A stretch of 45,459 bases of DNA from Parcubacteria group bacterium ADurb.Bin192 (GTDB lineage: Bacteria; Patescibacteriota; Patescibacteriia; 2-12-FULL-60-25), in assembly GCA_002070095.1 (NCBI GenBank), contig MWCR01000011.1:1-45459 (forward strand), read 5' to 3'. Shown here one piece after another: positions 1-41,800 of this stretch; within the stretch, counting starts at the first letter, position 1, and the number at the start of each line of letters is the position of its first letter. The position numbers and the translations under genes were made by a program. The notes below the pieces were generated by a model, which had not been told where the DNA came from, ran no database searches, and saw only the letters and a program-made list of their open reading frames with translations.

Positions 1-3000
1 GGTTTTATCAGCACTTACTTCATGGGCGGTGTGAAAACCAATGCTTTGGATGCTGATTTGGCCACGGTTGGAGAACTAATGGTTAGGGGCAACGCTAGAT
101 TCAGCAATAAATTGGATGTTGATGGGCTGCTGTCCGTGAGTGGAGCCTATGTTGGCGCGCAGGGCCTTTATGCTTTGGGTAATATAACCACCAATGGAGA
201 TTTAAAAGTTAACGGCGTTGCCACCACCACGCACATTTACCCGGCCGCCAATAATACCTATGATTTGGGCAAGTATGCCAGTTCATGGCGCAATGTTTAT
301 GTTTCCAGCACGGTCTTTACTCAAAACTTGTGGGCCAAAAACATTACATTGGGCTTTAATACACCCACGCTCAAGTGGGGCGTTGACGATGCCTCGGGCA
401 ATGATACCAGATCCATCGACATCGTGAATGATTATGCCTATGTGGCCGGTTATCGGGATATCAGGATTTATAATATTTCAGGTTCCAGCACACCGTCATT
501 GGTCAGTACTATCAATGCAAGCAATTTGGCATATATTCCGGATATAAAGGTTTGGGGCGGATACTTGTATGTCATGCAAGGGACGGCCAATGTTTTCAGG
601 GTATATGATGTGCGCAATCCCGCCTCGCCTGTTTTGGTGGATACGCAGTCACCGGGTGTCAGCGTTTATTCCGTTGCTTTTTCGGGTAATTACGCTTTTG
701 TCGGCACATCCAACGGCAATGTCAGAGTTTATGATGTTTCTGATCCGGACAATTTGGTCTATAAAACTTCGGTTTCTGTCAGCGCCAGTACGGTGAATGA
801 GATCTTTGTGCAGGGCAAATATGCTTATGTCGGCACGCTAAACGGCAGCGGCAATACTGATTTGGTGGTGGTTGATATTTCCAATCCCTTGGCTCCCACC
901 GTGGCCGGCGGTATTGATGTCGGCGCCAGCGCGGTACAGGGTGTACAAGTGGTTGGTCCGTATGCTTATATCACAACTTTAAGCGGTGGACCGGCTGTCA
1001 ATGAAGAATTCATCATTTATAATATTTCCAATCCCGCCTCCATCACTTACGTAGACGGTTATGACATTGATACCAGTTCGGCGGACGCGATTTTTGTGAC
1101 GGATAATTACGCTTATGTGAGTACTTTAAATGCCGCCTCCATAGCAGGTCATACCTCCAGTGATTTGATTATTTTCGATATTTCCAATAAAGCCAGTATA
1201 ACCCTTGCCGGAGGTGTTAATGTGGATGCTTCGTATATACCAAACGATATCTTTGTTAAAGGCCGGTATTTGCATACAATAACTTTTAATGCGGACGCGG
1301 GTACCGGCACATATGAATATCTAATCTATGATTTGGGTGGTGCGGATTTTTATACGGCCCGCATCGGGTCATTAGAAGCAGACAGTGTAACTATAGATGA
1401 CAGCGCCAAGATCAATAATAATTTGTTTGTTGGCTCCGGCATCAGTGCGGGGAATGGCGGTGTGTATACCACCGGAGGCTTGTCTGCCTACAGCCTGTCC
1501 AAGCTTGGTCATACCCAGGCTATAACCAATAATACATACGACCTGGGCGGAGGGGGTTATGCCTGGAGAAATATTTATGCTTCGGGCACGATTATGGCGC
1601 CAACTGTATGGGCTCAAGATGTTGACGCGGATAATCCGACTGTAACACAGGTTAGCTTAACCGCCATATCAAATGCTTATACTTACGGCGCCATGGATTT
1701 AGCCGGCAATTACCTATACGCCGCTCAACTCACTAGCAATCGTATACATATAATCGATGTGTCTGTACCGGGTGCGCCATCCAGTACCGGGTCGGTTGAT
1801 ATTGGTTTTCCATCACGCGACATCAAAGTAAACGGCAAGTATTTGTACGCTAATATAGATTATAATTTCGGCAACGACGGCTTTAGAATAGTGGATATTT
1901 CCAATCCGGCTTCACCGATCTATGTGGGTGAAGCTCGTTTATCAGACTCGTATTATGGCTTGGATGTGGCCGGGCAATATGTATACAAATTAAGGCAGGC
2001 TGATAATTCATTGTATATCTACGATGTTTCCAATCCGGCATCTCCGGCGCTTAAATCAACTATTGCGGTGCAGGGCACGGGCCTGCGTGATGTGATGGTT
2101 CAAGACAGGTATGCCTATGTCTTAAACAATGGCAGTGCCTCCTTGTCGGTGATAGATGTTTCCAATCCCGGCACCCCGGTTTTTGTAGCCACGACTACGG
2201 TGCCCGCGGCCGCGGAAACCATTGTGGTTCAAGGCCGATATGCTTATATCAGCCATTCCAACGCCACCATTAATTTTTCTATCATTGATTTGAAAAATCC
2301 AGCTGCTCCGGTTCAAATCGCGACCTTAAATACCGGTTCTTATCCTTTGGGCGCGACCATGAATACTTTATTCGTAGCCGGCAAATACGTGTATTTAGCT
2401 GGTCAGAGCGGCACGGCTGCTATCAGAGTAATCGATGTAAGCAATCCATATGCACCCAGGGTGGTAGCGACGCAAGCGCGTGTTGACGTACGCGGAGTGG
2501 TGGTCGGCGGTCAGTATATGTACGCGACTTATGGCAATGGATATTTGGGTGTCTACCGGATGTCCGGGGTTGAGACCAGCGCACTGACCGCGCACAGCGC
2601 GCAAATCGGAGATTTGAACATTCTCGGCGACACTACGGTTTATAAACAACTAACGGTTAAGGGCGCTGTCAGCACCGGTCCTTTGTACGCTCTGGGCAGT
2701 ATTACGACGGCCGGTGATCTGACTGTCAGAGGCAATTCGAATTTAGCCGGCACTTTGAACGTGAGCGGCATTTCAACGACCACTCACATTTATCCGGCTA
2801 GCAACAATTTATATAATTTGGGACGTCCCGGCTATGCCTGGAATAATATCTATGCTTCGGGCACGGCTTATTTGGGCGGTTTGAATTTGACCGGCGGATT
2901 TACCCAAGGTTTCGCGCCTAACACCACTCTGACCGCTTATGGTCCGGTGGCTTTACCGGATGATGGAACGGATATCGCGGTGCAAGGGCGTTATGCCTAT

Positions 3001-14102: not shown

Positions 14103-14505
14103 TGTCATTGCGAGGAGCTTGGCGACGTGGCAATCTACTGATATGCCAAAAACTTATTATGTTTATATTTTGACCAACAAAACCAACAAAGTTCTGTACG
14201 TTGGAGTAACCAATAATCTAGAAAAAAGAGTTTTTGAACATAAGAATAATATATCGGAAAAATCCTTTACGGCCACTTATAATGTACATAAATTGGTTTC
14301 TTTTGAAGAAACATCAGATATCAATAGTGCTTTAAATCGAGAGAAACAGATTAAAGCAGGCTCCAGACAGAAAAAATTAGATTTGATTAATAAGGTTAAT
14401 CCGGAATGGAAGGATTTGTTGGAAGGTTTGGGTTGTTAATAGATTGCCACGGTACGGCGTTCGCGAAAGCCGTACCGCGTCGTGATTACACTCCTCGCAA
14501 GGACA
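14103..14505 (+). mobile_element. GIY-YIG gene bracketed by inverted F1 arms, copy A
   Basis: The left arm (14103-14137) runs from TGTCATTGCGAG to GGCAATCTA. The right arm (14440-14505) begins TAGATTGCCAC directly after the stop codon, contains a TTCGCGAA-core palindrome and ends CTCGCAAGGACA. The only content between the arms is the 98-codon nuclease gene. The layout is that of an F1 pair whose loop has been replaced by a nuclease gene. A second copy lies at 17852-18254. Mobility is inferred; no transposase and no clear target duplication is visible. Confidence 0.6.
14143..14439 (+). CDS. GIY-YIG nuclease domain protein, copy A
   Basis: A 98-residue single-domain GIY-YIG (URI type) endonuclease-like protein. 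YYVYILTNKTNKVLYVGVTN near the N-terminus carries the Y-V-Y...Y-V-G core, followed by the LEKRVFEHK helix with its conserved Arg and the downstream Asn-Arg-Glu-Lys-Gln block. An upstream in-frame ATG at 14119 lies inside the F1 repeat arm, so ATG 14143, which begins MPKTYYVYI, is preferred. There is no extra DNA-binding domain, as is usual for stand-alone members of this family. It differs from the gene at 17892 at only two C-terminal residues. It is flanked on both sides by inverted F1 arms, which suggests the nuclease and repeat travel together. The DNA target is unknown. Confidence 0.88.
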   Translation: MPKTYYVYILTNKTNKVLYVGVTNNLEKRVFEHKNNISEKSFTATYNVHKLVSFEETSDINSALNREKQIKAGSRQKKLDLINKVNPEWKDLLEGLGC

Positions 14506-14613: not shown

Positions 14614-15828
14614 CTAGAAGGCGCAGCGGCGCGCGTACAGATCGCGCGTGGTCAACAGGTAGGCAATCTCCTGTTCCGCGTCGTAGAGCATTTCCATGGG
14701 GTAGCCCGAGACTTCTTCGAGCAGGCTGGTCTGCTCCGTGAAGAAGCTCTCCTTGGCGTTGTAGCTCAAGCTTTCTTCCAGATGCGTAACCCATAGATTG
14801 GTGTAGTCTCCGTACAGATCCGTGAGGTGCGGGATGCTGTAGCCCGCGGTCATCACTTGGTTCTGTTGGTTGACCAGGAGCGGGCTGTAGCCCTTGGCAT
14901 TGTGGTTCACGAAGGCTCGCCAGTCCTGTAGTTGGCGCACGCGCCAGACAGCGGCGTGTTCATCCGCGAATTGACCGCTCACCCACAGATCGTTCAGATC
15001 CGCTCCGCGCACTTGGTGAATGTCGCGGCAAGACGCCGGTATCTGGGCGCTGTCCCATGTCTGGTCATCCAGATTGAAGATGAACAACAGGCCCTGAGTG
15101 GCCGCATGGTACTCGTCCAACAAACTGCCCGTGACCAAAAGGTGAGTTTCATCGACCGGCCAAAGGCGGTTGACACGGTAATCGGCCGGCTGTGCAGGCA
15201 GGGCGTATTCCGTCACAGTTGTCTGCTCTCTGATGACCAGCCTATGCTCGCCCGATTCGTGCTCGGCCAGCATCAGCAAAGCATCTCCCATGGGCAAGAG
15301 ATCGTTGATTTTTGCCCAGGGCGGCGCGGTGCTGATCTCGCCCCATTGTTCCTGGCGCCAGTGGTAGAGAGCGGGGCGGTCCTGGCTGTCAGCTCCCAGC
15401 ATGACCAACTGTTCTTGCATGACGCGCAGGGTTTTGCCGGTCGTTGCCGTTGGCGGCAGGTTGATTAGTTCCCAGCCTGGGTCAGTTTTTCTGGCCAAAG
15501 CCGAACCCAAGTCGCTGGACACGGTTACATGCAGACGGCCTTGGTAAAGAGCCAGCCCGCCCGTGCGGTTGACCGGCCAATCGTTCAAGATCAGCTGGCG
15601 CAGTTCATCGTCGCGTTGCCAATCCTCGCAGACCGGTTCAGCGTCGGGCGGTACAGCATCAGGCGGAGCTGAATCCGGTTCCGAAGTGCCGCAGGGCGGA
15701 GCGGAATTTTCTTCCACGCTCACATTCCCCCCGCATCCAATCAACACCATCAGACAGACATTACCGCTCAAGCCAAGCGTTATCGGTTTACGTGAGACGC
15801 AGGACGTGCGACGTGCGACGTTTTTCAT
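14614..15828 (-). CDS. Secreted lipoprotein 1, probable beta-propeller, function unknown
   Basis: 404 residues. The signal peptide ends in a lipobox, VLIGC (Cys32), followed by an acidic/Pro linker to about residue 65, then alternating short strands with Trp/Asp turns that suggest a beta-propeller. No catalytic motif is recognised. ATG 15828 is preceded by GAAGAGGTCGTC, a good SD site. The promoter region, SD and first 35 codons closely match the gene at 16170-17618, but the mature proteins do not. The charged start of the signal peptide (residues 4-13) is encoded by an F7 dispersed repeat in reverse. Codons are GC-richer than in ychF or galU nearby, which hints at a different origin. It is probably exported and anchored to the membrane surface. 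Confidence 0.8.
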   Translation of the reverse strand: MKNVARRTSCVSRKPITLGLSGNVCLMVLIGCGGNVSVEENSAPPCGTSEPDSAPPDAVPPDAEPVCEDWQRDDELRQLILNDWPVNRTGGLALYQGRLHVTVSSDLGSALARKTDPGWELINLPPTATTGKTLRVMQEQLVMLGADSQDRPALYHWRQEQWGEISTAPPWAKINDLLPMGDALLMLAEHESGEHRLVIREQTTVTEYALPAQPADYRVNRLWPVDETHLLVTGSLLDEYHAATQGLLFIFNLDDQTWDSAQIPASCRDIHQVRGADLNDLWVSGQFADEHAAVWRVRQLQDWRAFVNHNAKGYSPLLVNQQNQVMTAGYSIPHLTDLYGDYTNLWVTHLEESLSYNAKESFFTEQTSLLEEVSGYPMEMLYDAEQEIAYLLTTRDLYARRCAF

Positions 15829-15856
15829 GACGACCTCTTCAGTTTTGAAAGTGCGG

Positions 15857-15932
15857 TTTAAGCTATACCTCTAGTATAGCCTTGCCCATGGCAATCACCA
15901 AATATGGCAGAATAAAGCCTATGTGTCAACAC
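15857..15932 (-). promoter_or_regulatory. Promoter and inverted repeat upstream of lipoprotein 1
   Basis: Two overlapping candidates on the minus strand: TTGACA (15925-15930), 17 bp, CATATT (15902-15907); and TTGGTG, 17 bp, TATACT. The second -10 lies in a CTATAC...GTATAG inverted repeat (15863-15879) that may be an operator or leader hairpin. All elements are conserved at 17651-17719. Confidence 0.6.
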
Positions 15933-15943
15933 TTTCCTACCCT

Positions 15944-16067
15944 GTCATTGCGAGCGAGTCCGACGAGCACGCCACGGCGTTCGCGAACGCCGTGGCGTGG
16001 CAATCTGCTTAGATGCTAGCTAGATGAGCGAGATTGCCGCGTCGTGATTACACTCCTCGCAATGACA
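15944..16067. repeat. F1 inverted-pair repeat with internal TTCGCGAA palindrome
   Basis: A TGTCATTGCGAG...CTCGCAATGACA element. A CCACGGCGTTCG/CGAACGCCGTGG palindrome is inserted between GACGAG and GTGGCAATCT compared with the copy at 13990. A further degenerate half element with the same palindrome core follows at 16079-16141. Together with the promoter region these fill the 341-bp gap between the two lipoprotein genes. Confidence 0.8.
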
Positions 16068-16152
16068 GAATAACAGTCTTGCCATCACGAGGAGTTATGC
16101 GACGAGATATGGAATTCGCGAACGCCGTGCCGTGGCAATCGGTTTAAATAAC

Positions 16153-16171
16153 AAAAAAGCGCCGAAGCGCT
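16153..16171 (-). terminator. Terminator of lipoprotein 2, overlapping the stop codon
   Basis: On the minus strand AGCGC-ttcg-GCGCT is followed by TTTTTTG. The stem includes the TAG stop at 16170-16172. Confidence 0.8.
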
Positions 16172-17618
16172 AGTCGAAAGAAAGGGCGATGGCCAGAACC
16201 CGGCCGGTCGGATCGCTGGCATAAAGCGTGTTGCACCAGTCGTGGCCAAGATGGAAGAAGGCGCCGAAGGGCAACATGCAGTCCGTGCCTTGGCAGTCGG
16301 CTTGGAAGCCATTGCCGAAGAATTGGGCGAACTCATCATGTCCGGAAAGTTGGTACACGGTTTGCCACGCGGTTCCGTTCCAGGCCACCACGGCCGCGGG
16401 TTCGAGAATGTTGGAGCCCGAGCTGTCCATCGTCATACTGCGCAGACCGTAGACCACGCCGTTCGGAGCCTTGGTCATACCGGTCATGAAGGCCGGCATG
16501 TCTTGGGTGTTCAACAGCTCACCGGCCTGTGACAGGCTGTACATCTTGCGCGCCAATTGGTCGGCGACCAGCAGAGTATCGCCTTGTCCTTGCGAGACGG
16601 CCACACGCAAGCCGTGCGGCAAAACCTCATCAGCTTCCTGCTTGAAGAACGTGATGTTGTCCGCCGGCAGATTCAACTCGCCGGGCAACTCCGTGATCAG
16701 ATCGACTGAACCGTCTTCCGTGTTCACGGAGTAGACGGCCGCGGGTTGCGCGATGCCGGTGATGTTGCAGGGCGTGGGATCGTGACACATGGTGTTCAGC
16801 CTGGGCAGAGTCGTTGCTACCAGAGTTCCGTCGTCCAGGCAGAGCAAGGACGAAACGTTCCCCGGCAGCACGGCCTTGGCCAGCTTTTGCGTGTTCTTGC
16901 GCAGCTGCCAGACAGTATTTCCGCCATTGCTGGCCAAGTAGTAGCCGCCGGCGCATTCTGTCAGAGCGAAGTCCAACCCTGCGTAGTCCAGCAACTCTTG
17001 TCCGTTCACATTCACCGGGCGCTGTTGCCAGGTATTGAGCGCGAAAGCGTCACGCGCTTCCTGCTCCGTGAAGTAGCTGATGGCAACCAGTTGTTGGCCC
17101 GGCTTGGCGATGGTGAACAGCGGAGAGAAGAAGCTCTGTTCATCCACGCCGGTGTAGGGCGCACTCCACATCATCAAGCGGCTGAATCCGGCTTTGAAGT
17201 CCGTGAAGTCGTAGGCAGGCTGGGTGGGATACTGGGGAGTGCTGGCCGGGAACGTTCCTTCGTTGTCCAGCAGTTCCACCTTGGCGACCAGATCGGCAAA
17301 ACCATGGATCGTGCCGGCGCTCGAGGCGAGTGTCTTCACCTCTGCTGTGCGTCCGAGCCGGTCCTGTGTCCAGCAACTCATGCCCGGAGGTTTTTTACCG
17401 GGCGGGTTGGTGTTCAGCCCGCCGGCGTCAGTTTCCGGTGTCCCCGCGTCAGTCGAGGCGGGTTCAGGATTGGACATGGTTGGTTCAGGGCTGGTATCCG
17501 TTTCGAAATTCACATTCCCCCCGCATCCAACCAACACCATCAGACAGACAATACCGCTCAAGTCAAGCGTTATCGGTTTACGCGGGACGCAGGACGAGCG
17601 ACGTGCGACGTTCTTCAT
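16170..17618 (-). CDS. Secreted lipoprotein 2, propeller-like
   Basis: 482 residues from ATG 17618, chosen because the SD (GAAGAGGTC) and first codons match lipoprotein 1; an ATG 66 nt upstream adds a tail with no RBS. The signal peptide starts MKNVARRSSC with lipobox VLVGC (Cys32). A Pro/Thr/Asp linker leads to a soluble domain rich in strand-turn repeats. A central block (VNVNGQELLDYAGLDFAL ... TLVATTLPR) aligns by eye with VNVNGLDLQTYAGVTFDV ... LVVTTLPG of the third lipoprotein, so the two are paralogues. The fold suggests an SMP-30/gluconolactonase-like or NHL-like propeller, without visible metal-site proof. The C-terminus contains paired Cys. It is GC-rich compared with core genes. The ligand is unknown. 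Confidence 0.8.
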   Translation of the reverse strand: MKNVARRSSCVPRKPITLDLSGIVCLMVLVGCGGNVNFETDTSPEPTMSNPEPASTDAGTPETDAGGLNTNPPGKKPPGMSCWTQDRLGRTAEVKTLASSAGTIHGFADLVAKVELLDNEGTFPASTPQYPTQPAYDFTDFKAGFSRLMMWSAPYTGVDEQSFFSPLFTIAKPGQQLVAISYFTEQEARDAFALNTWQQRPVNVNGQELLDYAGLDFALTECAGGYYLASNGGNTVWQLRKNTQKLAKAVLPGNVSSLLCLDDGTLVATTLPRLNTMCHDPTPCNITGIAQPAAVYSVNTEDGSVDLITELPGELNLPADNITFFKQEADEVLPHGLRVAVSQGQGDTLLVADQLARKMYSLSQAGELLNTQDMPAFMTGMTKAPNGVVYGLRSMTMDSSGSNILEPAAVVAWNGTAWQTVYQLSGHDEFAQFFGNGFQADCQGTDCMLPFGAFFHLGHDWCNTLYASDPTGRVLAIALSFD

Positions 17619-17646
17619 GACGACCTCTTCAGTTTTGAGAGTACGT

Positions 17647-17719
17647 TTTAAGCTATACCTATAGTATAGCCTTGCTCGGAGCAATCACCAAATATGGCAG
17701 AAAAAAGCCCATGTGTCAA
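17647..17719 (-). promoter_or_regulatory. Promoter and inverted repeat upstream of lipoprotein 2
   Basis: TTGACA (17714-17719), 17 bp, CATATT (17691-17696). A downstream TATACT lies in the CTATAC...GTATAG inverted repeat 17653-17669. It is near-identical to the region upstream of lipoprotein 1. Confidence 0.6.
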
Positions 17720-17732
17720 CACCCTCCAACCA

Positions 17733-17839
17733 TGTCATTGCGAGGAATGAGTCCGACGAATGACGCGGCAATCTACTTAGACGCTAGCTAGATGAGCGAG
17801 ATTGCCGCGTCTTCACCTTCGTTCATCCTCGCAATGACA
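17733..17839. repeat. F1 inverted-pair repeat
   Basis: TGTCATTGCGAG...CTCGCAATGACA with opposed inner halves. Its right half and the spacer to the next arm are identical to 14046-14102, so the duplicated block extends upstream of the GIY-YIG element. Confidence 0.85.
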
Positions 17840-17851
17840 TAGTATCAGTCA

Positions 17852-18254
17852 TGTCATTGCGAGGAGCTTGGCGACGTGGCAATCTACTGATATGCCAAAA
17901 ACTTATTATGTTTATATTTTGACCAACAAAACCAACAAAGTTCTGTACGTTGGAGTAACCAATAATCTAGAAAAAAGAGTTTTTGAACATAAGAATAATA
18001 TATCGGAAAAATCCTTTACGGCCACTTATAATGTACATAAATTGGTTTCTTTTGAAGAAACATCAGATATCAATAGTGCTTTAAATCGAGAGAAACAGAT
18101 TAAAGCAGGCTCCAGACAGAAAAAATTAGATTTGATTAATAAGGTTAATCCGGAATGGAAGGATTTGTTGGCAGGATTGGGTTATTAATAGATTGCCACG
18201 GTACGGCGTTCGCGAAAGCCGTACCGCGTCGTGATTACACTCCTCGCAATGACA
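17852..18254 (+). mobile_element. GIY-YIG gene bracketed by inverted F1 arms, copy B
   Basis: It has the same organisation as 14103-14505: left arm, nuclease gene, right arm with palindrome, ending CTCGCAATGACA (an intact terminus, where copy A has AGGACA). The sequences are nearly identical, so the duplication is recent. Confidence 0.6.
17892..18188 (+). CDS. GIY-YIG nuclease domain protein, copy B
   Basis: 98 residues, identical to the product at 14143 except near the C-terminus (LLAGLGY against LLEGLGC). GIY-YIG core YYVYI...VLYVGVTN, then the Arg-bearing helix LEKRVFEHK. The start is ATG 17892, because the upstream in-frame ATG is inside the repeat arm. The stop codon is immediately followed by the right inverted arm. 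The near-identity of protein, flanks and spacing suggests recent duplication or gene conversion. It converges on the lipoprotein 3 terminator, as copy A does with the lipoprotein 1 terminator. Confidence 0.88.
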   Translation: MPKTYYVYILTNKTNKVLYVGVTNNLEKRVFEHKNNISEKSFTATYNVHKLVSFEETSDINSALNREKQIKAGSRQKKLDLINKVNPEWKDLLAGLGY

Positions 18255-18330: not shown

Positions 18331-20034
18331 TTACCTGCGGCGCAGACCCAGGCCGGCCAAGGTAGCCGCGCCCAGCGCGCCCAAGAGAGCGAACCAGACC
18401 CAGGGAGAAGTGCCCTCCGGAGTCTCGGCCATGGGTTCGTGAGCCGGAGGATAAGGCGCGCTTTGGGGCGCACTGCCGGCCGCTCCAGAGGTACCGGCCA
18501 TTCCTGCACTGCCGGCCGCTCCGCTGGCACCGGCTGTTCCGGTTTCCGCATCATCACCCGCTTCCGGCAAGCCCGCGTCGGGTTCTTCGCCCATGTCCAG
18601 AGGAATCTCGAACAGGCGGGCGGTGATGGTGTCAGACACGAACAAGAGGGGTGTGACATCGGGTACAACCTTGAAGTAGACGCCGATGGGTTGTTTGCAG
18701 AGGGGGACTCCGGCATCGGCGAACTCATCTGGGCATGGGATGGCGAACTTCCCCCAACTCATGTCGTCTTCATGGCCATCATAACCTGTAAGTTCAACAA
18801 CCTCTTCCCACACCAAGGGGTCTTCGTTCAGGGCGTAAATGGTCACGCCCTTGAGGATGTAATCAGGATCCTCTGGTCCCCCAGCGTTGCCCAAGATGGG
18901 TGGAGTCACCAAATATAGTACGTCGTTGGGCGCACTGATCAGAGCGACTACCAGGAGGGGCATGGAGGTGACTTCTTCCACTGTATCGCCGTCAGACGAG
19001 ATCTTGTACAGTCGTCGGGCGCCAACATCCCCCATCCAGAAACTGCCGTCTGCCTTGAGCGCCACCGGATAGCGAAAGCTGGTTGGCATGGCGTAAGGCG
19101 TGAAGGTGAATTCATAGCAGCTGGAGATGTTCTCATAGTCGCTGGGGATGGGCAGTGAGGCTATCTCGGTAACCGTGTGCGGTTCATCGATGGCGATCTT
19201 GATGAGTTTGGCAGGCAATTCAGGGGGAGGATTCAGGGGTGCGTTCTTGATGTAACCGGGCAAGGTGGTCACGACCAGGAATCCTTGAGGGTGAACCATG
19301 AGGGTCGAAGGGAGACCAAAACCTTCTGCCAGAATTTTTGGTTCCAGCCCCGGCCGCAATTCGTAGACCGCGTCATCAGAGCTGGTGGCGAAGAAGTAGC
19401 GGTTCAGCTTGGTCTCCACGTCAAAGGTAACGCCAGCGTAGGTTTGCAGATCCAGGCCGTTGACGTTGACCGAGTGAGGGATGAAGCAATCGATGGTCCA
19501 GTCCGTGCGCCAGTCAGGGAAGTGTTCATCGACGGTTACGGCCCCATTGGGGCTGTAGGTGACTGCGTACGGAGGCTCGGCTACAACCAATTGCTCGTTT
19601 TCGAGCTTGAGGTAGGGGGGTGTGAAGATGTGGAGGTCTGACGACGGACTGGTTGTTCCGAAGTCCACCTTGGGAATGACCGGTGGGAGAGCCTCCGCGT
19701 CAGATGCGCCTCCGTCCAGTTCGCCGTCCATGGTACGGATCATCGGGTCTTGCAGACTGATGCCCAGGATGGGCCCGCCGTTTTGCATGATGACCCGGGG
19801 TACACCGGCTTTGCCGATGACTCCTTTTTTCCAGACGTTGCCCGGCGTCCCGGCTTCTCCTCCTGATCCACCAACAGAAGTCCCTCCGTTGCCGGCTGTG
19901 CCTCCCATGCCTCCGGTGGCCGTCGTGCCGCCAGTACCTCCTCCCCCAGGTTCATCGCTCCCGCAGCCCAAGGGCAGGGTCAAGGCCAAAATGGCCGCCA
20001 GCAAGTACATCCAAGCGCGGTGCATGTTGTTCAT
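18331..20034 (-). CDS. Lipoprotein 3 with Gly-rich linker, propeller domain and C-terminal membrane tail
   Basis: 567 residues. Signal peptide with lipobox LPLGC (Cys24). A Gly/Thr/Ser-rich linker spans about 29-65. The large soluble domain is paralogous to lipoprotein 2 (VNVNG...YAG...TTLPG block) and probably propeller-like. A second Gly/Ala/Ser-rich spacer is followed by PWVWFALLGALGAATLAGL and a terminal RRR, a short hydrophobic anchor of the type seen in sorted C-terminal tails. There is no Cys or LPxTG motif near it. The start has a strong SD, AAGGAGGAGGAG, before ATG 20034. Carrying both a lipid anchor and a C-terminal helix is unusual. The Gly-Thr linker resembles those of myxobacterial lipoproteins, which hints at transfer but does not prove it. 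Confidence 0.8.
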   Translation of the reverse strand: MNNMHRAWMYLLAAILALTLPLGCGSDEPGGGGTGGTTATGGMGGTAGNGGTSVGGSGGEAGTPGNVWKKGVIGKAGVPRVIMQNGGPILGISLQDPMIRTMDGELDGGASDAEALPPVIPKVDFGTTSPSSDLHIFTPPYLKLENEQLVVAEPPYAVTYSPNGAVTVDEHFPDWRTDWTIDCFIPHSVNVNGLDLQTYAGVTFDVETKLNRYFFATSSDDAVYELRPGLEPKILAEGFGLPSTLMVHPQGFLVVTTLPGYIKNAPLNPPPELPAKLIKIAIDEPHTVTEIASLPIPSDYENISSCYEFTFTPYAMPTSFRYPVALKADGSFWMGDVGARRLYKISSDGDTVEEVTSMPLLVVALISAPNDVLYLVTPPILGNAGGPEDPDYILKGVTIYALNEDPLVWEEVVELTGYDGHEDDMSWGKFAIPCPDEFADAGVPLCKQPIGVYFKVVPDVTPLLFVSDTITARLFEIPLDMGEEPDAGLPEAGDDAETGTAGASGAAGSAGMAGTSGAAGSAPQSAPYPPAHEPMAETPEGTSPWVWFALLGALGAATLAGLGLRRR

Positions 20035-20806
20035 GATCTCCTCCTCCTTAAGAAGGTTGTTCGCTTTTCGAGGTACGAACCTGAGTGTCCGTTATCTTGC
20101 TTTTACCATGGTTAAGCGAAAATGTCCAGACTGCTTCATGAAGCATGTAACATGTAACATGTAGCACATAACATATAACATCGTCTCACATTAAACCTAT
20201 GTACCGCCTTCGGGCTTTCCCTCTCTTGGGTAAGAGAGGGTTAGGGTGAGTTATGCTTAGTGTCCCTCATAATCCCGCTTTCGTCATCCTGAATTCAGTT
20301 CAGGATCTCATCACTAAATCATTAAAACCACAGCCATGTCATTGCGGGCGAGTCCGACGAGCGCGGTACGGAGTTCGCGAGTGCCGTACCGCGGCAATCT
20401 ACATAGTCGACAAGCTTATGAGCGAGATTGCCGCGGCTTCACATCCGTTCATCCTCGCAATGACAGATGGCTTTAGAAACTGGATCCCCGCGTTCGCGAG
20501 GATGACGAAAAGACAGGCGTCATCCTGAATTTATTTCAGGATCTCATTACTCAACCAAGTCATTTCGACTGGAACGAAGGTGTAATGGAGAAATCGCTTT
20601 GGCTCATCGGACTTAAGGAATCTCTCCACAGAGCCTGCCCTGAGCGCAACCGAAGGGGTCGAGATGACAGTAAAGATAATGATTTAGAAAGTGAGATGCT
20701 GAACTGAATTCAGCATGACGGATAAAGTGCCAGGATGACAAAAATAAATGATTGAGTTGCGCTGATAATTGCTTTTTTTGCTTTATTCAGGAATAATTGT
20801 CTGACT
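20035..20806. repeat. Repeat-filled gap (F6, F8, F2, F1, F5, F2, F3, F4)
   Basis: No gene is supported. In order: lipoprotein 3 leader (20035-20130); F6/F8 block 20143-20281; F2 near 20283-20312; F1 pair with palindrome 20337-20465; F5 near 20477-20507; F2 near 20519-20550; F3 20558-20668; F4 20690-20722. The F8-F2-F1 order recurs at 39008-39215. Confidence 0.8.
20769..20797 (+). promoter_or_regulatory. Promoter of ychF (leaderless type)
   Basis: TTGCTT (20769-20774), 17 bp, AATAAT (20792-20797). The -10 ends 9 nt before ATG 20807, so transcription should start within a few bases of the start codon. AGG at 20789-20791 lies upstream of the predicted start site, so no SD would be transcribed. 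Confidence 0.5.
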
Positions 20807-21907
20807 ATGTCACTTCAGATCGGTATCGTTGGGTTGCCCAATGTCGGTAAATCAACTTTGTTTAAAGCTATCACCAAAAAAGCCGTGGATTGCGCTAATT
20901 TTCCATTTTGTACCATCGACCCCAACGTCGGCGTTGTCGAAGTGCCGGATGCGCGGTTGGAGCCTTTGGCTAAAATTTCCAAGTCCGAAAAAATAGTACC
21001 GGCTGTGATTGAATTCGTGGACATCGCGGGTTTGGTGCGCGGAGCCTCTGAAGGCCAGGGTTTGGGTAATGCTTTTTTAACGCATATCAGAAATACGGAT
21101 GCCATCGTGCAAGTTTTGCGCGCTTTTGAAGATGAAAACATCATTCATGTGGATGGCGGTATAGATCCGGCACGTGATATCGAGACTATAAATATTGAAT
21201 TGTCGTTGGCTGACTTGGCCGTGGCGGAAAAAAGACTGGAAACCGCGTCCAAGCAAATGAAGGCCGGCACCAATAAAGAACTGGCTATTTTGATTCCGGC
21301 TCTGGAAAAAGCCAAACAAGCTTTGGAGCAAGCCGTGCCTTTGCGCACTCTAGATTGGAGCGATGAGGAACGTTTAGCCATGAAGTCCTTGTCGTTTTTA
21401 ACGCTAAAACCCATGCTCTATGTCCTGAATGTATCCGAAGAACAATTGCAAAACCTGCCAAAATCCATTATGGACAACGTGGGACGCGTAGGACGTGCGA
21501 CGAGCGACGACATCGTCCCCATCTGCGTTAAAATGGAGGCTGAATTTTTAGATATGAATGATCAGGAAAAGCAAGAATATTTGCAAGTCATGAATCAAGA
21601 CAGCTCCGGACTGGATCGTTTGATTGTCAGTGCCTTTCATTCTCTGAATTTGATTACTTTTCTAACCAGTGGAGAGATAGAAACCAAAGCTTGGACCATT
21701 ACGCGCGGTATGCTGGCTCCGCAAGCCGCGGGTGTGATTCATACGGATTTTGAAAAAGGTTTTATCCGCGCCGAAGTGGCGGCTTTTGATGATTTTGTGG
21801 CCTGTAACGGCTGGGTGGGAGTTAAGGAAAAAGGCAAGATGCGTGTGGAAGGCAAAGAATATGAAGTTAAAGACGGAGACATTGTTTTTTTCAGGATAGC
21901 CACATGA
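20807..21907 (+). CDS. ychF: Ribosome-binding ATPase YchF (OBG-family)
   Basis: 366 residues, the normal YchF length. P-loop GLPNVGKST (about 7-15), switch II VDIAGLVRGASEGQGLG, the NVSE specificity motif that in YchF replaces the NKxD motif of GTPases, and a C-terminal TGS domain ending KEYEVKDGDIVFFRIAT. YchF binds the 70S ribosome and hydrolyses ATP; in other bacteria it influences translation and stress responses. Residues about 224-235 (NVGRVGRATSDD), between the nucleotide-binding and C-terminal parts, are encoded by an F7-type dispersed repeat. The rest of the gene is conventional. ATG 20807 is the only sensible start. Confidence 0.97.
   Translation: MSLQIGIVGLPNVGKSTLFKAITKKAVDCANFPFCTIDPNVGVVEVPDARLEPLAKISKSEKIVPAVIEFVDIAGLVRGASEGQGLGNAFLTHIRNTDAIVQVLRAFEDENIIHVDGGIDPARDIETINIELSLADLAVAEKRLETASKQMKAGTNKELAILIPALEKAKQALEQAVPLRTLDWSDEERLAMKSLSFLTLKPMLYVLNVSEEQLQNLPKSIMDNVGRVGRATSDDIVPICVKMEAEFLDMNDQEKQEYLQVMNQDSSGLDRLIVSAFHSLNLITFLTSGEIETKAWTITRGMLAPQAAGVIHTDFEKGFIRAEVAAFDDFVACNGWVGVKEKGKMRVEGKEYEVKDGDIVFFRIAT
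21478..21510 (+). repeat. F7 repeat inside ychF, in frame
   Basis: GTGGGACGCGTAGGACGTGC and the following GACGAGCGACG match intergenic F7 copies at 17582-17611, 22275-22334 and 41606-41640. It is read as VGRVGRATSD without breaking the frame. Confidence 0.7.
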
Positions 21908-22363
21908 CGGATGGCGTACTTAACGTCCCTAACGTCCATCGCGTCCTCTAACGTATCCCGATAGAATCATCGGGAGAATCCAGTTACTTAGAAACTGGAT
22001 CCCCGCCTACGCGAGGATGACGAAAAAAGAGGGACGTCATCCTGAACTTGTTTCAGGATCTCATTACACAATAACCATTATTTTTCAGTATGATGAGAAG
22101 CGAGATGCTGAACTTAATTCAGCCTGACGGAAGAGCACAGGATTCAGTCATATTATTCTAATACCTCATCAGGTCTTTTTACTATTGAGCAGTTATTATG
22201 GATTTGGATTTATATGTTGTTCGTTATACACTGTGTACTATATGTTCTTTGTTATATGTCGTATGTTTCGTGACGTGGGACGCAGGACGTGGGGTAGTCG
22301 TTCGCGAAACGACACCCCGTGGGACGTGCGACGTTTAATACGTTAAGTCATTAATTGTTAAAT
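21908..22363. repeat. Repeat-filled gap (F5, F2, F4, F7)
   Basis: Contains F7-like cgtccctaacgtcc at 21920-21955, a TCCCGAT...ATCGGGA hairpin (21956-21976), F5 near 21994-22022, F2 22037-22068, F4 22098-22131, and F7 with an inserted TTCGCGAA palindrome 22271-22337. An AT-rich stretch at 22140-22265 shows nothing recognisable. No gene is supported. Confidence 0.75.
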
Positions 22364-24820: not shown

Positions 24821-25435
24821 CGTACCTAGCGTACATAACGTACTTAACGTCCTACGTCGCTCGTCCTACGTCACAAAGCACATAGCACATAGCATGTAGC
24901 AAGCAACCAGACTGTCGTACCGCGGGGTGTCGTTCATGAACGACTGCCACGCGTCCTGCGTCAAAACCAACATTGTCATTGCGAGCGGAGCGTGGCAATC
25001 TCGCTCGTTAGCCAGTTATCTAAGCAGATAGCCACGGTACGGCGTTCGCGAACTCCGTGCCGTGGCAATCTATTAATAACCTCTCCATCATTCTGCACCA
25101 CCCCTTCGTCATCCTGAACTTGTTTCAGGATCTCATTACTCATCCATGTTATTTCGACTGGAACGAAGGTGAAATAGAGAAATCACTTTAGCTTATTGAG
25201 TCCAAGGGATCTCTCCACAGAGCTTGCTCTGAGCGTAGCCGAAGGGGTCTAGATGACAGAGGCGGGTGGGTCTAGATAACAGTAAAGATAATGATTTAGA
25301 AAGCGGGATTATGAGGGACACTAAGCATAACTCACCCTAACCCTCTCTTACCCAAGAGAGGGAAAGCCCGAAGGCGGTACATAGGTTTAATGTGAGACGA
25401 TGTTATATGTTATGTGCTACATGTTACATGTTTTA
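24821..25435. repeat. Repeat-filled gap (F7, F6, F1, F2, F3, F8)
   Basis: F7 begins in the stop codon (24818-24865). Then come F6-like 24870-24905, a degenerate palindrome 24917-24955, F1 pair with palindrome 24973-25074, F2 25109-25142, F3 25147-25260, a spacer gtaaagataatgatttag shared with 20672-20689, and an inverted F8 copy 25299-25431. No gene is supported. Confidence 0.8.
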
Positions 25436-28068: not shown

Positions 28069-28640
28069 TGCTTATGAAAAAGTTATCTCGATTACTGACG
28101 GTCAGCGCTTGCTTGTTTATTTTTGCGGTTCAAGCCGCACCTGTTTTAGCGGGTCCTCAATGCACGACGGCCGGCGGTGTCTGCAAGGCTAATTGCGATA
28201 CGGTCACGGAAAATAATCAAGGTGCGCTTGACTGTACGGCACCGGACGGAAATTGCTGTGTGCCCAAGGCGGCCACTCCCGCGCCCGCGGTTCAACCTAC
28301 GGCCCAACCAGAAATAACCGTGCCCGAAACCGAAACGGTTAATGTGTCCGGTGATTGCCGGACGGATGTGGGCGGTATCAGTTTTCCTTGTCCGTTGGGT
28401 GAGCGCAATGTTTCGCGCATCATCGGATCCCTTATCAGATGGGTATTGGGTCTGGTGGGAGCTTTATTTTTTGCCATGTTTGTATACGGAGGCTTTATGT
28501 ACATCATCGCGGGCGAAAACGCCAAAAACGCGGAAACCGGACAAAAGACTTTAATCAACGCGGTTATCGGTTTGTCCATTGTAGTGGGAGCTTACATGGT
28601 GCTGGGTTGGCTCTTGGGCATTTTTGAAAAAGCGTTTTAA
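28068..28640 (+). CDS. VirB2/TrbC-like pilin with one Cys module (pilin 3)
   Basis: 190 residues. ATG 28068 overlaps the TAA stop of pilin 2 (TAATG), suggesting translational coupling; ATG 28074 is an alternative start. Signal peptide to about residue 28, one Cys module (CTTAGGVC...DGNCC), a Pro/Thr/Glu linker, then two helices, WVLGLVGALFFAMFVYGG and AVIGLSIVVGAYMVLGWLLG, around a short loop (AGENAKNAETGQKTL). The core is the same as the other pilin-like proteins here. An in-frame ORF extends upstream inside pilin 2 but is not needed. Confidence 0.75.
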   Translation: MLMKKLSRLLTVSACLFIFAVQAAPVLAGPQCTTAGGVCKANCDTVTENNQGALDCTAPDGNCCVPKAATPAPAVQPTAQPEITVPETETVNVSGDCRTDVGGISFPCPLGERNVSRIIGSLIRWVLGLVGALFFAMFVYGGFMYIIAGENAKNAETGQKTLINAVIGLSIVVGAYMVLGWLLGIFEKAF

Positions 28641-28662
28641 TAAAATGGAGGTTGCGCGGGTG

Positions 28663-28698
28663 TGCTATAATAAAACAAATGATTACGAAAGGAGGTGT
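28663..28698 (+). promoter_or_regulatory. Extended -10 and strong SD for pilin 4
   Basis: TGCTATAAT (28663-28671), then AAAGGAGGT, a near-perfect anti-16S match about 10 nt before ATG 28705. The identical signals are copied at 29917-29952. Confidence 0.6.
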
Positions 28699-28704
28699 GC
28701 ACAC

Positions 28705-29094
28705 ATGAACAAAATTACAAAAACAATGGCCGCTTTAGGTTTAACGGCCAGCATGTTATTGCCCGTGGCGGTTTTAGCTCAACAAGGAACTTTGACGGCC
28801 AATGATTTGGGAGTAACGGCCGTAGGCAACACGGTTAAATTGGGCGGAGCCGACGTGCGCCAAACAGCCGCCAATATCATTAACGTGGCTTTGGGTTTCT
28901 TAGGCATCATCGCGGTTATCATTGTTCTTATCGGAGGCTTTAAATACATGATTGCGGGTGGCGATGAGAGCAAGACCAAAGAAGCTCGCGGTTGGATAGT
29001 TTCCGGCATCATCGGTTTGGCTATCATCTTAGCGGGTTGGGCCATCACCAGCTTTGTCATCGGACAATTGATTGAGGCTACGACCAACGTATAA
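28705..29094 (+). CDS. VirB2/TrbC-like pilin (pilin 4, duplicated)
   Basis: 129 residues from ATG 28705, set by the strong SD; longer upstream frames have no RBS. Signal peptide ending VLAQQ (about residue 24), a short mature N-terminus, then helices VALGFLGIIAVIIVLIGGFK and GIIGLAIILAGWAITSFVIG with the AGGDESKTKEARGW loop. This is the classic T4SS-pilin size and layout without Cys modules. The protein is identical to that encoded at 29959-30348. The stop is followed at once by F6 repeat (ACATGTAGCATG). With the strongest SD of the cluster and two gene copies, it may be the major subunit (inference). Confidence 0.8.
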   Translation: MNKITKTMAALGLTASMLLPVAVLAQQGTLTANDLGVTAVGNTVKLGGADVRQTAANIINVALGFLGIIAVIIVLIGGFKYMIAGGDESKTKEARGWIVSGIIGLAIILAGWAITSFVIGQLIEATTNV

Positions 29095-29278
29095 ACATGT
29101 AGCATGTAGCATATAACATGTAGCATGTAGCATGTAGCATGTAGCAAGCGTACATAGCGTCCTGCGTCGCTCGTCCTGCGTCCCGCGTCTATTCAACTTG
29201 ACGTGCGACGACTGGGACGTGCGACGTGTGACGATTGACTCTCCGGCGAGAGTGAGTTGGAAGGGGTTGTGAATTATC
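29095..29278. repeat. F6 and F7 repeats between pilin genes
   Basis: Tandem ACATGTAGCAT-type units (29095-29145) are followed by F7 in both orientations (29150-29235). Then come a GTGAGTTGGAAGGGGTTG stretch and the next ATG. Confidence 0.8.
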
Positions 29279-29857: not shown

Positions 29858-29916
29858 TTTTTTAATTTTTTATAAAATTGTATTTGGTTGAATTTATAGC
29901 TTGAAATTTTGACGTG

Positions 29917-29952
29917 TGCTATAATAAAACAAATGATTACGAAAGGAGGTGT
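29917..29952 (+). promoter_or_regulatory. Duplicated extended -10 and SD for pilin 6
   Basis: TGCTATAAT (29917-29925) and AAAGGAGGT, identical to 28663-28698. Confidence 0.6.
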
Positions 29953-29958
29953 GCACAC

Positions 29959-30348
29959 ATGAACAAAATTACAAAAACAATGGCCGCTTTAGGTTTAACG
30001 GCCAGCATGTTATTGCCCGTGGCGGTTTTAGCTCAACAAGGAACTTTGACGGCCAATGATTTGGGAGTAACGGCCGTAGGCAACACGGTTAAATTGGGCG
30101 GAGCCGACGTGCGCCAAACAGCCGCCAATATCATTAACGTGGCTTTGGGTTTCTTAGGCATCATCGCGGTTATCATTGTTCTTATCGGAGGCTTTAAATA
30201 CATGATTGCGGGTGGCGATGAGAGCAAGACCAAAGAAGCTCGCGGTTGGATAGTTTCCGGCATCATCGGTTTGGCTATCATCTTAGCGGGTTGGGCCATC
30301 ACCAGCTTTGTCATCGGACAATTGATTGAGGCTACGACTAACGTCTAA
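29959..30348 (+). CDS. VirB2/TrbC-like pilin, exact copy of pilin 4 (pilin 6)
   Basis: 129 residues, identical in sequence to the product at 28705. The two genes differ at only two positions that I can see, both in the last few codons. The duplicated block starts a few bases before TGCTATAAT (28660 and 29914) and runs into the F6 repeat past the stop, about 470 bp. The identity implies recent duplication or ongoing gene conversion. The role is as for pilin 4. Confidence 0.8.
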   Translation: MNKITKTMAALGLTASMLLPVAVLAQQGTLTANDLGVTAVGNTVKLGGADVRQTAANIINVALGFLGIIAVIIVLIGGFKYMIAGGDESKTKEARGWIVSGIIGLAIILAGWAITSFVIGQLIEATTNV

Positions 30349-32456: not shown

Positions 32457-32943
32457 GACCTTTCTCCCTTCTTGTGCTGGGTCATTTAGTAAAACCCTTA
32501 CCATTTTTTTGAATAAAAGTCAATACGCGTACCTGATTAACGTCCCACGTCATGAAGCATATAACATATAACATGTAACAAATAAACCAACGTCCCGCGT
32601 CCTACGTCAAACCCAACGTTGTCATTCCCGGCTAAGCAGCTGATAGGCTTAATGAGCTAAATAATTAAATCGGTCCCGATACTCGCAAAAAATTATACAC
32701 TCGCGGTGCCCACCATCGCCTTAGCGTAGGTGGGATCGGGATCCCGAATCGCAGCATCGGGAGAACTGCCTTAAAAGACAATTTGTCACTAACCATGTTC
32801 ATCATGTTCTATGCTACCGTCTCATCGTCATCCTGAATTCATTTCAGGATCTCAACACTCAAAACTCCTGTCTTCCCGTTAGTGGGAAGCGAGATGCTGA
32901 ACTGAATTCAGCATGACAGATAAAGCACGAGGATAACGACCAT
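32457..32943. repeat. Repeat-filled gap (F7, F6, hairpins, F2, F4)
   Basis: F7/F6 fragments 32540-32615, a CCCACC...GGTGGGATCGGGATCCCG region 32708-32765, F2 32826-32855, F4 32888-32922. Short unassigned stretches lie between. No gene is supported. Confidence 0.7.
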
Positions 32944-41432: not shown

Positions 41433-41800
41433 TTTAACTAAATAAACGTACTTAACGTACCTAGCGTCCATAACGTCCTATCACGTACATAACGTCCTAC
41501 GTCGTTATTCCCTCTCTTGGGTAAGAGAGGGTTAGGGCGAGTTAGGCTCTCGCGTATCCAACGTACTACGTCACAAAACACATAACATGTAGCATGTAAC
41601 AAACGTAGACGTCCCGCGTCGCTCGTCCTGCGTCCCACGTCAGGAACATTCCACGCCTTCGGGCTTTCCTTCCCTCTCTTGGGTAAGAGAGGGTTAGGGT
41701 GAGTTAGGCTCTCGCGTACCCAACGTACTACGTCACAAAACACATAACATGTAGCATGTAACAAACGTAGACGTCCTACGTCCGCGAGGATGACGAAGGT
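41433..41800. repeat. F7/F8/F6 repeats in tandem blocks
   Basis: F7 (41450-41505), F8 fragment CCCTCTCTTGGGTAAGAG (41511 on), F6 (41578-41602), F7 (41605-41640), then a second F8-F6-F7 run (41673-41785). Two tandem copies of about 170 bp share GGCTCTCGCGTA and CAACGTACTACGTCACAAAA. No gene. Confidence 0.75.

Follow-up and report, generated by a model that had tools for sequence, protein, structure and literature searches.

The heptamer CGTCNNR, a degenerate unit that forms the tandem repeat family F7, is dispersed across the genome of Parcubacteria group bacterium ADurb.Bin192 (GCA_002070095.1; here G000), where F7 copies lie in frame in conserved genes and as the leader codons of two lipoprotein genes. 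The corresponding sites in sister species are empty or differently filled, and longer composites recur in unrelated genes. F7 is very probably one of several dispersed tandem-heptamer families in the genus, spread within the genome by copying, with frame-keeping survivors in tolerant places. The preliminary description had proposed that a dispersed repeat became coding sequence in the lipoprotein leaders; this was borne out, and it holds for about 20 further sites, some of them with empty sites in sister species. Below, the window is the whole 45,459-nucleotide stretch analysed (contig MWCR01000011.1).

Both lipoprotein genes lie on the minus strand and open with ATGAARAAC, followed by a four-unit CGTCNNR array, so that codons 4-13 of each are an F7 copy, as originally proposed. 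With AAGAGG 5 bases upstream, the position of the start codon is good. The features of the pair are:

14614..15828, minus strand: lipoprotein 1 gene, 404 aa, lipobox MVLIGC
15793..15823, minus strand: F7 array of four CGTC units, codons 4-13 of lipoprotein 1
15720..15954, minus strand: 5' block copy A (leader, start and upstream region), direct repeat D2
16170..17618, minus strand: lipoprotein 2 gene, 482 aa, lipobox MVLVGC
17583..17613, minus strand: F7 array of four CGTC units, codons 4-13 of lipoprotein 2
17510..17744, minus strand: 5' block copy B, 91% identical to copy A, direct repeat D2

The 235-nt 5' block that the two genes have in common spans the start codon and the lipobox. At the protein level the match between lipoproteins 1 and 2 is confined to residues 1-64, which indicates that duplication placed a copy of the leader cassette in front of a different mature protein. 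The two separate adoptions of F7 implied earlier thus reduce to one event, followed by duplication of the 235-bp block. Lipoprotein 1 had no Pfam match, and its mature part has weak homologues in 8 other genomes of the family. A single-sequence fold of lipoprotein 2 reached a pLDDT of 35 and was discarded. The F7-bearing leader had no homologues outside the source genome, and for this reason it has no empty site.

The 20-mer on which the preliminary description was based, GTCGCACGTCGCACGTCCTG, has five matches in the window with up to 3 mismatches versus none in 100 shuffles. The copies that had been called the same sequence, at 22269, 29155 and 41607, do belong to the same heptamer family; their sequences are not identical, and the exact 20-mer occurs once. 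The intergenic copies in the window are:

22269..22336, minus strand: F7 plus hairpin GGGGTGTCGTTTCGCGAACGACTACCCC, the first part of the trmD/O-antigen-ligase composite
24845..24875, plus strand: F7 array, 4 units
29155..29236, no strand assigned: inverted F7 pair, strong hairpin, z -5.7
32588..32611, plus strand: F7 array, 3 units
41607..41644, plus strand: F7 array, 5 units

Genome-wide, the three-unit pattern CGTCNNNCGTCNNNCGTC gave 132 matches (58 + 74) in 1.44 Mb, and the reversed control gave 0. Nearly all units come from six heptamers, in which CGTC is followed by GCT, GCA, CCG, CCA, CTA or CTG. Their order is mosaic, with neighbours of the same class avoided (p = 0.008), and arrays of 3 to 5 units, mostly in copies of 24-85 nt, are mosaics and no exact copies of one master. 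A stricter F7 pattern was found 121 times in G000, 75 in G035, 50 in G031 and 26 in G032, with 0-10 copies in the rest of the genus; outside the genus there were at most 4 per genome, and 3 genomes had any in a 286-genome sample of the class. An Rfam search of the window returned tRNA only. Arrays of another heptamer type (ATGTAGC/ATGTAAC) were also seen in the window at 20136-20166, 24872-24901, 29107-29150 and 32558-32585, several of them adjoining F7 copies.

In a sample of 58 F7 clusters, taken from the draft genome around the listed pattern matches and from the window, 22 lay in frame inside long ORFs, the majority of which belong to named Pfam families. The genes concerned include pheT (twice), leuS, cysS, hflX, ychF, dnaE, trmD, truB, rpiB, tkt, asnB and dinB, among others. 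Pfam confirmed RpiB, transketolase, HflX, DnaE, PheT (both sites), CysS, TrmD, TruB, LeuS and DinB as carriers, as well as asparagine synthase, glycosyltransferases and an O-antigen ligase. The carrier in the window is ychF, whose named database matches come from mixed phyla and reach no more than 55% identity:

20807..21907, plus strand: ychF gene with in-frame F7 array (PF06071 and PF01926)
21489..21512, minus strand: F7 array in ychF, read as GRVGRATSDD, replacing loop residues with length nearly unchanged

The arrays affect their proteins in different ways. In TrmD two matched stretches are 34 residues apart, versus 2 in the best solved chain; in YchF and TruB the array overwrites loop residues at almost unchanged length. 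The F7-filled loop of HflX reads SPDVGRRTSDAGRS, and predicted tryptic peptides include LYLPPSPDVGR (HflX) and YRPASHVPRPASLK (PheT). An HflX model built on 7 sequences (mean pLDDT 58, pTM 0.46) places the insert between two predicted strands, 239-243 and 260-264, and its pLDDT drops under 50 at residues 251-256; it is weakly consistent with a loop. Avoidance of stop codons in the coding copies was not significant (p = 0.11). Two carriers showed further peculiarities. In LeuS (L116, G000:C10:12100-15200) the editing-domain match is followed by a NUDIX domain (Pfam 439-557), and a NYELRIKN stretch resembles another repeat-derived insert. A glycosyltransferase (L107, G000:C5:29700-33700) has ~40 residues of serial repeat-like pieces between its two domains, namely LPRNDNVSFD, PFAKGGRTLG, LLHATCYMF and F7.

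The same loops were compared in sister species; they were chosen for F7 in G000, and any rate taken from them depends on this selection. The HflX loop after LWLP holds F7 in G000, is empty in G029, G030 and G033, and carries non-F7 inserts in G031, G032, G034 and G035. The PheT, YchF and CysS loops behave in the same way, with other heptamer arrays in sister species. Many of the non-F7 inserts are heptamer arrays too, unrelated in sequence: CGAAGCT in G034, CTCGMAA and TCCGACY in G031, CGCGACA and TACCACA in G032, CGAAATW in G035 and GTACGAW in G028. In stretches of at most 20 kb picked without regard to repeats, the genus has 17.3 period-7 arrays per 100 kb; the density falls to 3.7 elsewhere in the family, to 1.0 elsewhere in the class and to 0.3 in other phyla. 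Other periods were rare in the same samples, except 14, a multiple of 7. With tandem 7-nt units and an excess of period 7, the arrays agree in this respect with heptameric simple sequence repeats. In the wider family, too, some period-7 arrays are located within long ORFs; in G036, from another genus of the family, two heptamer arrays were seen in one DNA-primase-like ORF of 662 aa (L258, ~1724-2423, minus strand).

Longer units were found in more than one gene. In G000 the trmD and O-antigen-ligase copies have in common a composite of ~110 nt, made up of the hairpin GGGGTGTCGTTNCGCGAACGACNACNCC, then F7 and then inverted F7, and the hairpin with part of F7 is also present in the window between ychF and a nucleotidyl transferase gene. 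A ~80-nt composite of G034 occurs in frame and almost unchanged in pheT and in two further ORFs, between flanks that are unrelated. Slippage alone would not yield composites common to unrelated genes, whereas copying would. Inverted pairs, present in 10 of the 58 clusters, and composites showed strong RNA folding (z -3.1 to -5.7). Single arms did not fold (z about 0 in the two tested), and the lipoprotein copy, a single arm, has z -0.1. No mover of F7 was found. The Y1 transposase (PF01797) was considered and rejected: it does not correlate with F7 copy number, the single copy in G000 has no flanking F7 arrays, and the family is absent from the F7-rich genomes G031 and G035, so that RAYT-type mobilisation is not supported. 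No target duplication was seen between filled and empty hflX sites, which are too diverged between species to exclude one.

On the preferred reading, F7 copies would spread through the genome by a copying process, and those landing in genes would survive only if the frame is kept and the place, a loop or a terminus, is tolerant. The lipoprotein leader would be one such survivor, copied once more by local duplication. The copies themselves would be selfish or neutral, with selection filtering them after insertion. Tolerance of the arrays may rest on their frame-proof reading. Translating a sequence of period 7 nt yields one and the same cyclic heptapeptide whichever frame is used, R-x-x-S-x-V-x on one strand (RRSSLVA or RPASRVP, for example) versus D-x-x-R-x-T-x on the other (SDERRAT or RDAGRGT). 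The CGTC strand has stops in no frame, and on the opposite strand 63-79% of simulated five-unit arrays are open. The same would hold for any period not divisible by three, and it therefore helps to explain the tolerance, not the choice of seven. Several observations count against this account. The lipoprotein leader itself has no empty site, overwriting at near-constant length in YchF and TruB is not explained by plain insertion, coding copies show no significant avoidance of stops, inverted pairs are scarce, the arrays are mosaics lacking a single master, and neither a target duplication nor a mover was found.

On a rival account there was no dispersal, and replication slippage would have created every array on the spot, in a weakly constrained loop. 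Tandem units varying in number from 3 to 5, the loops overwritten without a change in length, and the unequal heptamer families held by the same loops in different species would all fit such an origin. It is nevertheless unlikely, since the same six heptamers reappear at over 50 unrelated loci, on either strand and in coding as well as non-coding DNA, the composites of ~80 and ~110 nt, which include non-tandem parts, are common to unrelated genes, and slippage does not produce inverted pairs with matched arms. Slippage may trim and grow arrays after their arrival. The strong folding of inverted pairs and composites, together with the location of most clusters outside genes, could instead mean that F7 is mainly an RNA or DNA structure, a terminator or REP-like stabiliser, whose coding copies are kept for transcript effects. 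We regard this as improbable: most coding copies, including those of the lipoproteins, are single arms without folding, and the same genes in sister species either lack F7 or carry unrelated repeats.

A functional role was the preliminary description's own suggestion, according to which the repeat supplies the positively charged N-region needed for export. The homologues of lipoprotein 2 provide the comparison, one of them within the window as an internal control:

18331..20034, minus strand: lipoprotein 2 homologue with an F7-free leader, 24% identity over 427 aa, E 3e-22

Lipoprotein 2 shares homology in its mature part with this adjacent gene, whose leader reads MNNMHRAWMYLLAA...LGCGSDE, and with proteins in G035 (MNTKHFALFLL...CGSDE), G031 (MNTKRLLAVSCC...ACSDD) and G032 (MKTAHAIAVWF...LACSS), all of them with short, normal leaders that lack F7. 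Minus three heptamers (21 nt), the F7-bearing leader itself would read MKNVSRKPITL..., with K and R kept and the charge still positive. As read from these leaders, a need for the array in export is not supported. The form of this idea in which the arginines of F7 improve the N-region and are maintained by selection, draws on the several arginines that the array puts at the right place and on its retention in both duplicates with conservative changes only. It too appears quite improbable, given the working-looking leaders of the F7-free homologues, the K and R that remain once the array is taken away, and the many F7-bearing proteins in which N-terminal charge is irrelevant; moreover, conservation of the array says little after a single event. 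That the coding copies appear in frame only through chimeric assembly or dead genes is very hard to sustain. Every genome used is a draft, and repeats form the ends of several contigs (contig C8 of G000, for example, begins in F7), but ~20 genes stay open through their arrays with full-length family matches, several species show in-frame arrays independently, and no second intact copy of the essential genes was found at the score limits used.

A broader and more tentative proposal, which we hold to be rather doubtful, is that one machinery in the family makes and disperses heptamer arrays whatever their sequence, writing them into the loops of core proteins, sometimes as replacements. If so, aminoacyl-tRNA synthetase and GTPase surfaces would be rewritten species by species.

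Among known repeats, F7 most resembles in behaviour the Rickettsia palindromic elements (RPEs), palindromes of 100-150 bp that are found in dnaE and pheT, with different groups alternating at the same site between species (PMC3767692). RPEs and their Wolbachia counterparts are, like F7, dispersed and in frame in conserved genes, dnaE and pheT among them in both cases. Of their palindromic build, paired and composite F7 copies show strong hairpins, but pairs make up 10 of the 58 clusters and the lipoprotein copy does not fold. The in-frame share of F7 (22 of 58 clusters) agrees with the many coding copies expected of an RPE. In contrast, F7 has a tandem heptamer unit, comes with several unrelated heptamers, has coding copies mostly of 24-85 nt and belongs to a distant host lineage; the RPE length is reached only by the trmD and O-antigen-ligase composites (~110 nt). 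F7 may therefore be viewed as a heptamer-built variant that works like RPEs, a likeness of behaviour and not of compared RPE sequences. CGTC-tagged REPs, which have a single stem of 8-9 bp, a loop of 4-5 nt and a CCA tail (PMC3733652), have in common with F7 the CGTC tetranucleotide, head-to-head pairs, the lack of a dedicated transposase and some intragenic copies (PMC3733652). F7 differs in having CGTC every 7 nt and in departing from the single stem. Dispersed seven-base tandem units are also known as GGGAATC in Xanthomonas and GGGGA(C/T)T in Nostoc, reported to lie mostly between genes and to be under-represented in coding regions (PMC4692102), and as TAACTGA in Beggiatoaceae (PMC4679880). 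Unlike these, F7 lies in frame in essential genes and forms inverted pairs and composites. We found no earlier report of coding heptamer arrays in Patescibacteria in the open-access literature.

In-frame repeats in essential genes are known in bulk from Rickettsia and Wolbachia, and if a distant, streamlined lineage has its own independent version built of heptamers, there would be more than one way of reshaping core proteins by repeat invasion. That the period is strictly seven in coding and non-coding arrays alike points to an undescribed generating mechanism. Because empty, F7-filled and differently filled versions of one loop coexist, the origin of new sequence and the tolerance of the fold become directly testable. 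The lineage-specific inserts also sit in conserved proteins commonly used for phylogeny.

Several other features of the window were recorded. The lipoprotein at 18331-20034 (minus strand) has a Gly/Ala-rich region and a C-terminal PWVWFALLGALGAATLAGLGLRRR resembling a MYXO-CTERM sorting tail, and Gly/Ser/Ala-rich tails are also present in its G035 homologues. A pair of almost identical ORFs for GIY-YIG endonucleases (PF01541, E 3e-16) at 14119-14439 and 17868-18188 (plus strand) flanks the lipoprotein pair; the two ORFs overlap 97%-identical direct repeats of 300 nt and lie beside palindromic repeats, GTCATTGCGAG...GGCAATCT, of which, as a second repeat family, they are possibly the carrier. 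Finally, two T4SS pilin genes (PF18895), which together with the genome size point to a Patescibacteria-type host, are identical over 144 residues; they lie at 28624-29094 and 29914-30348 (plus strand), with another pilin-like gene between them.
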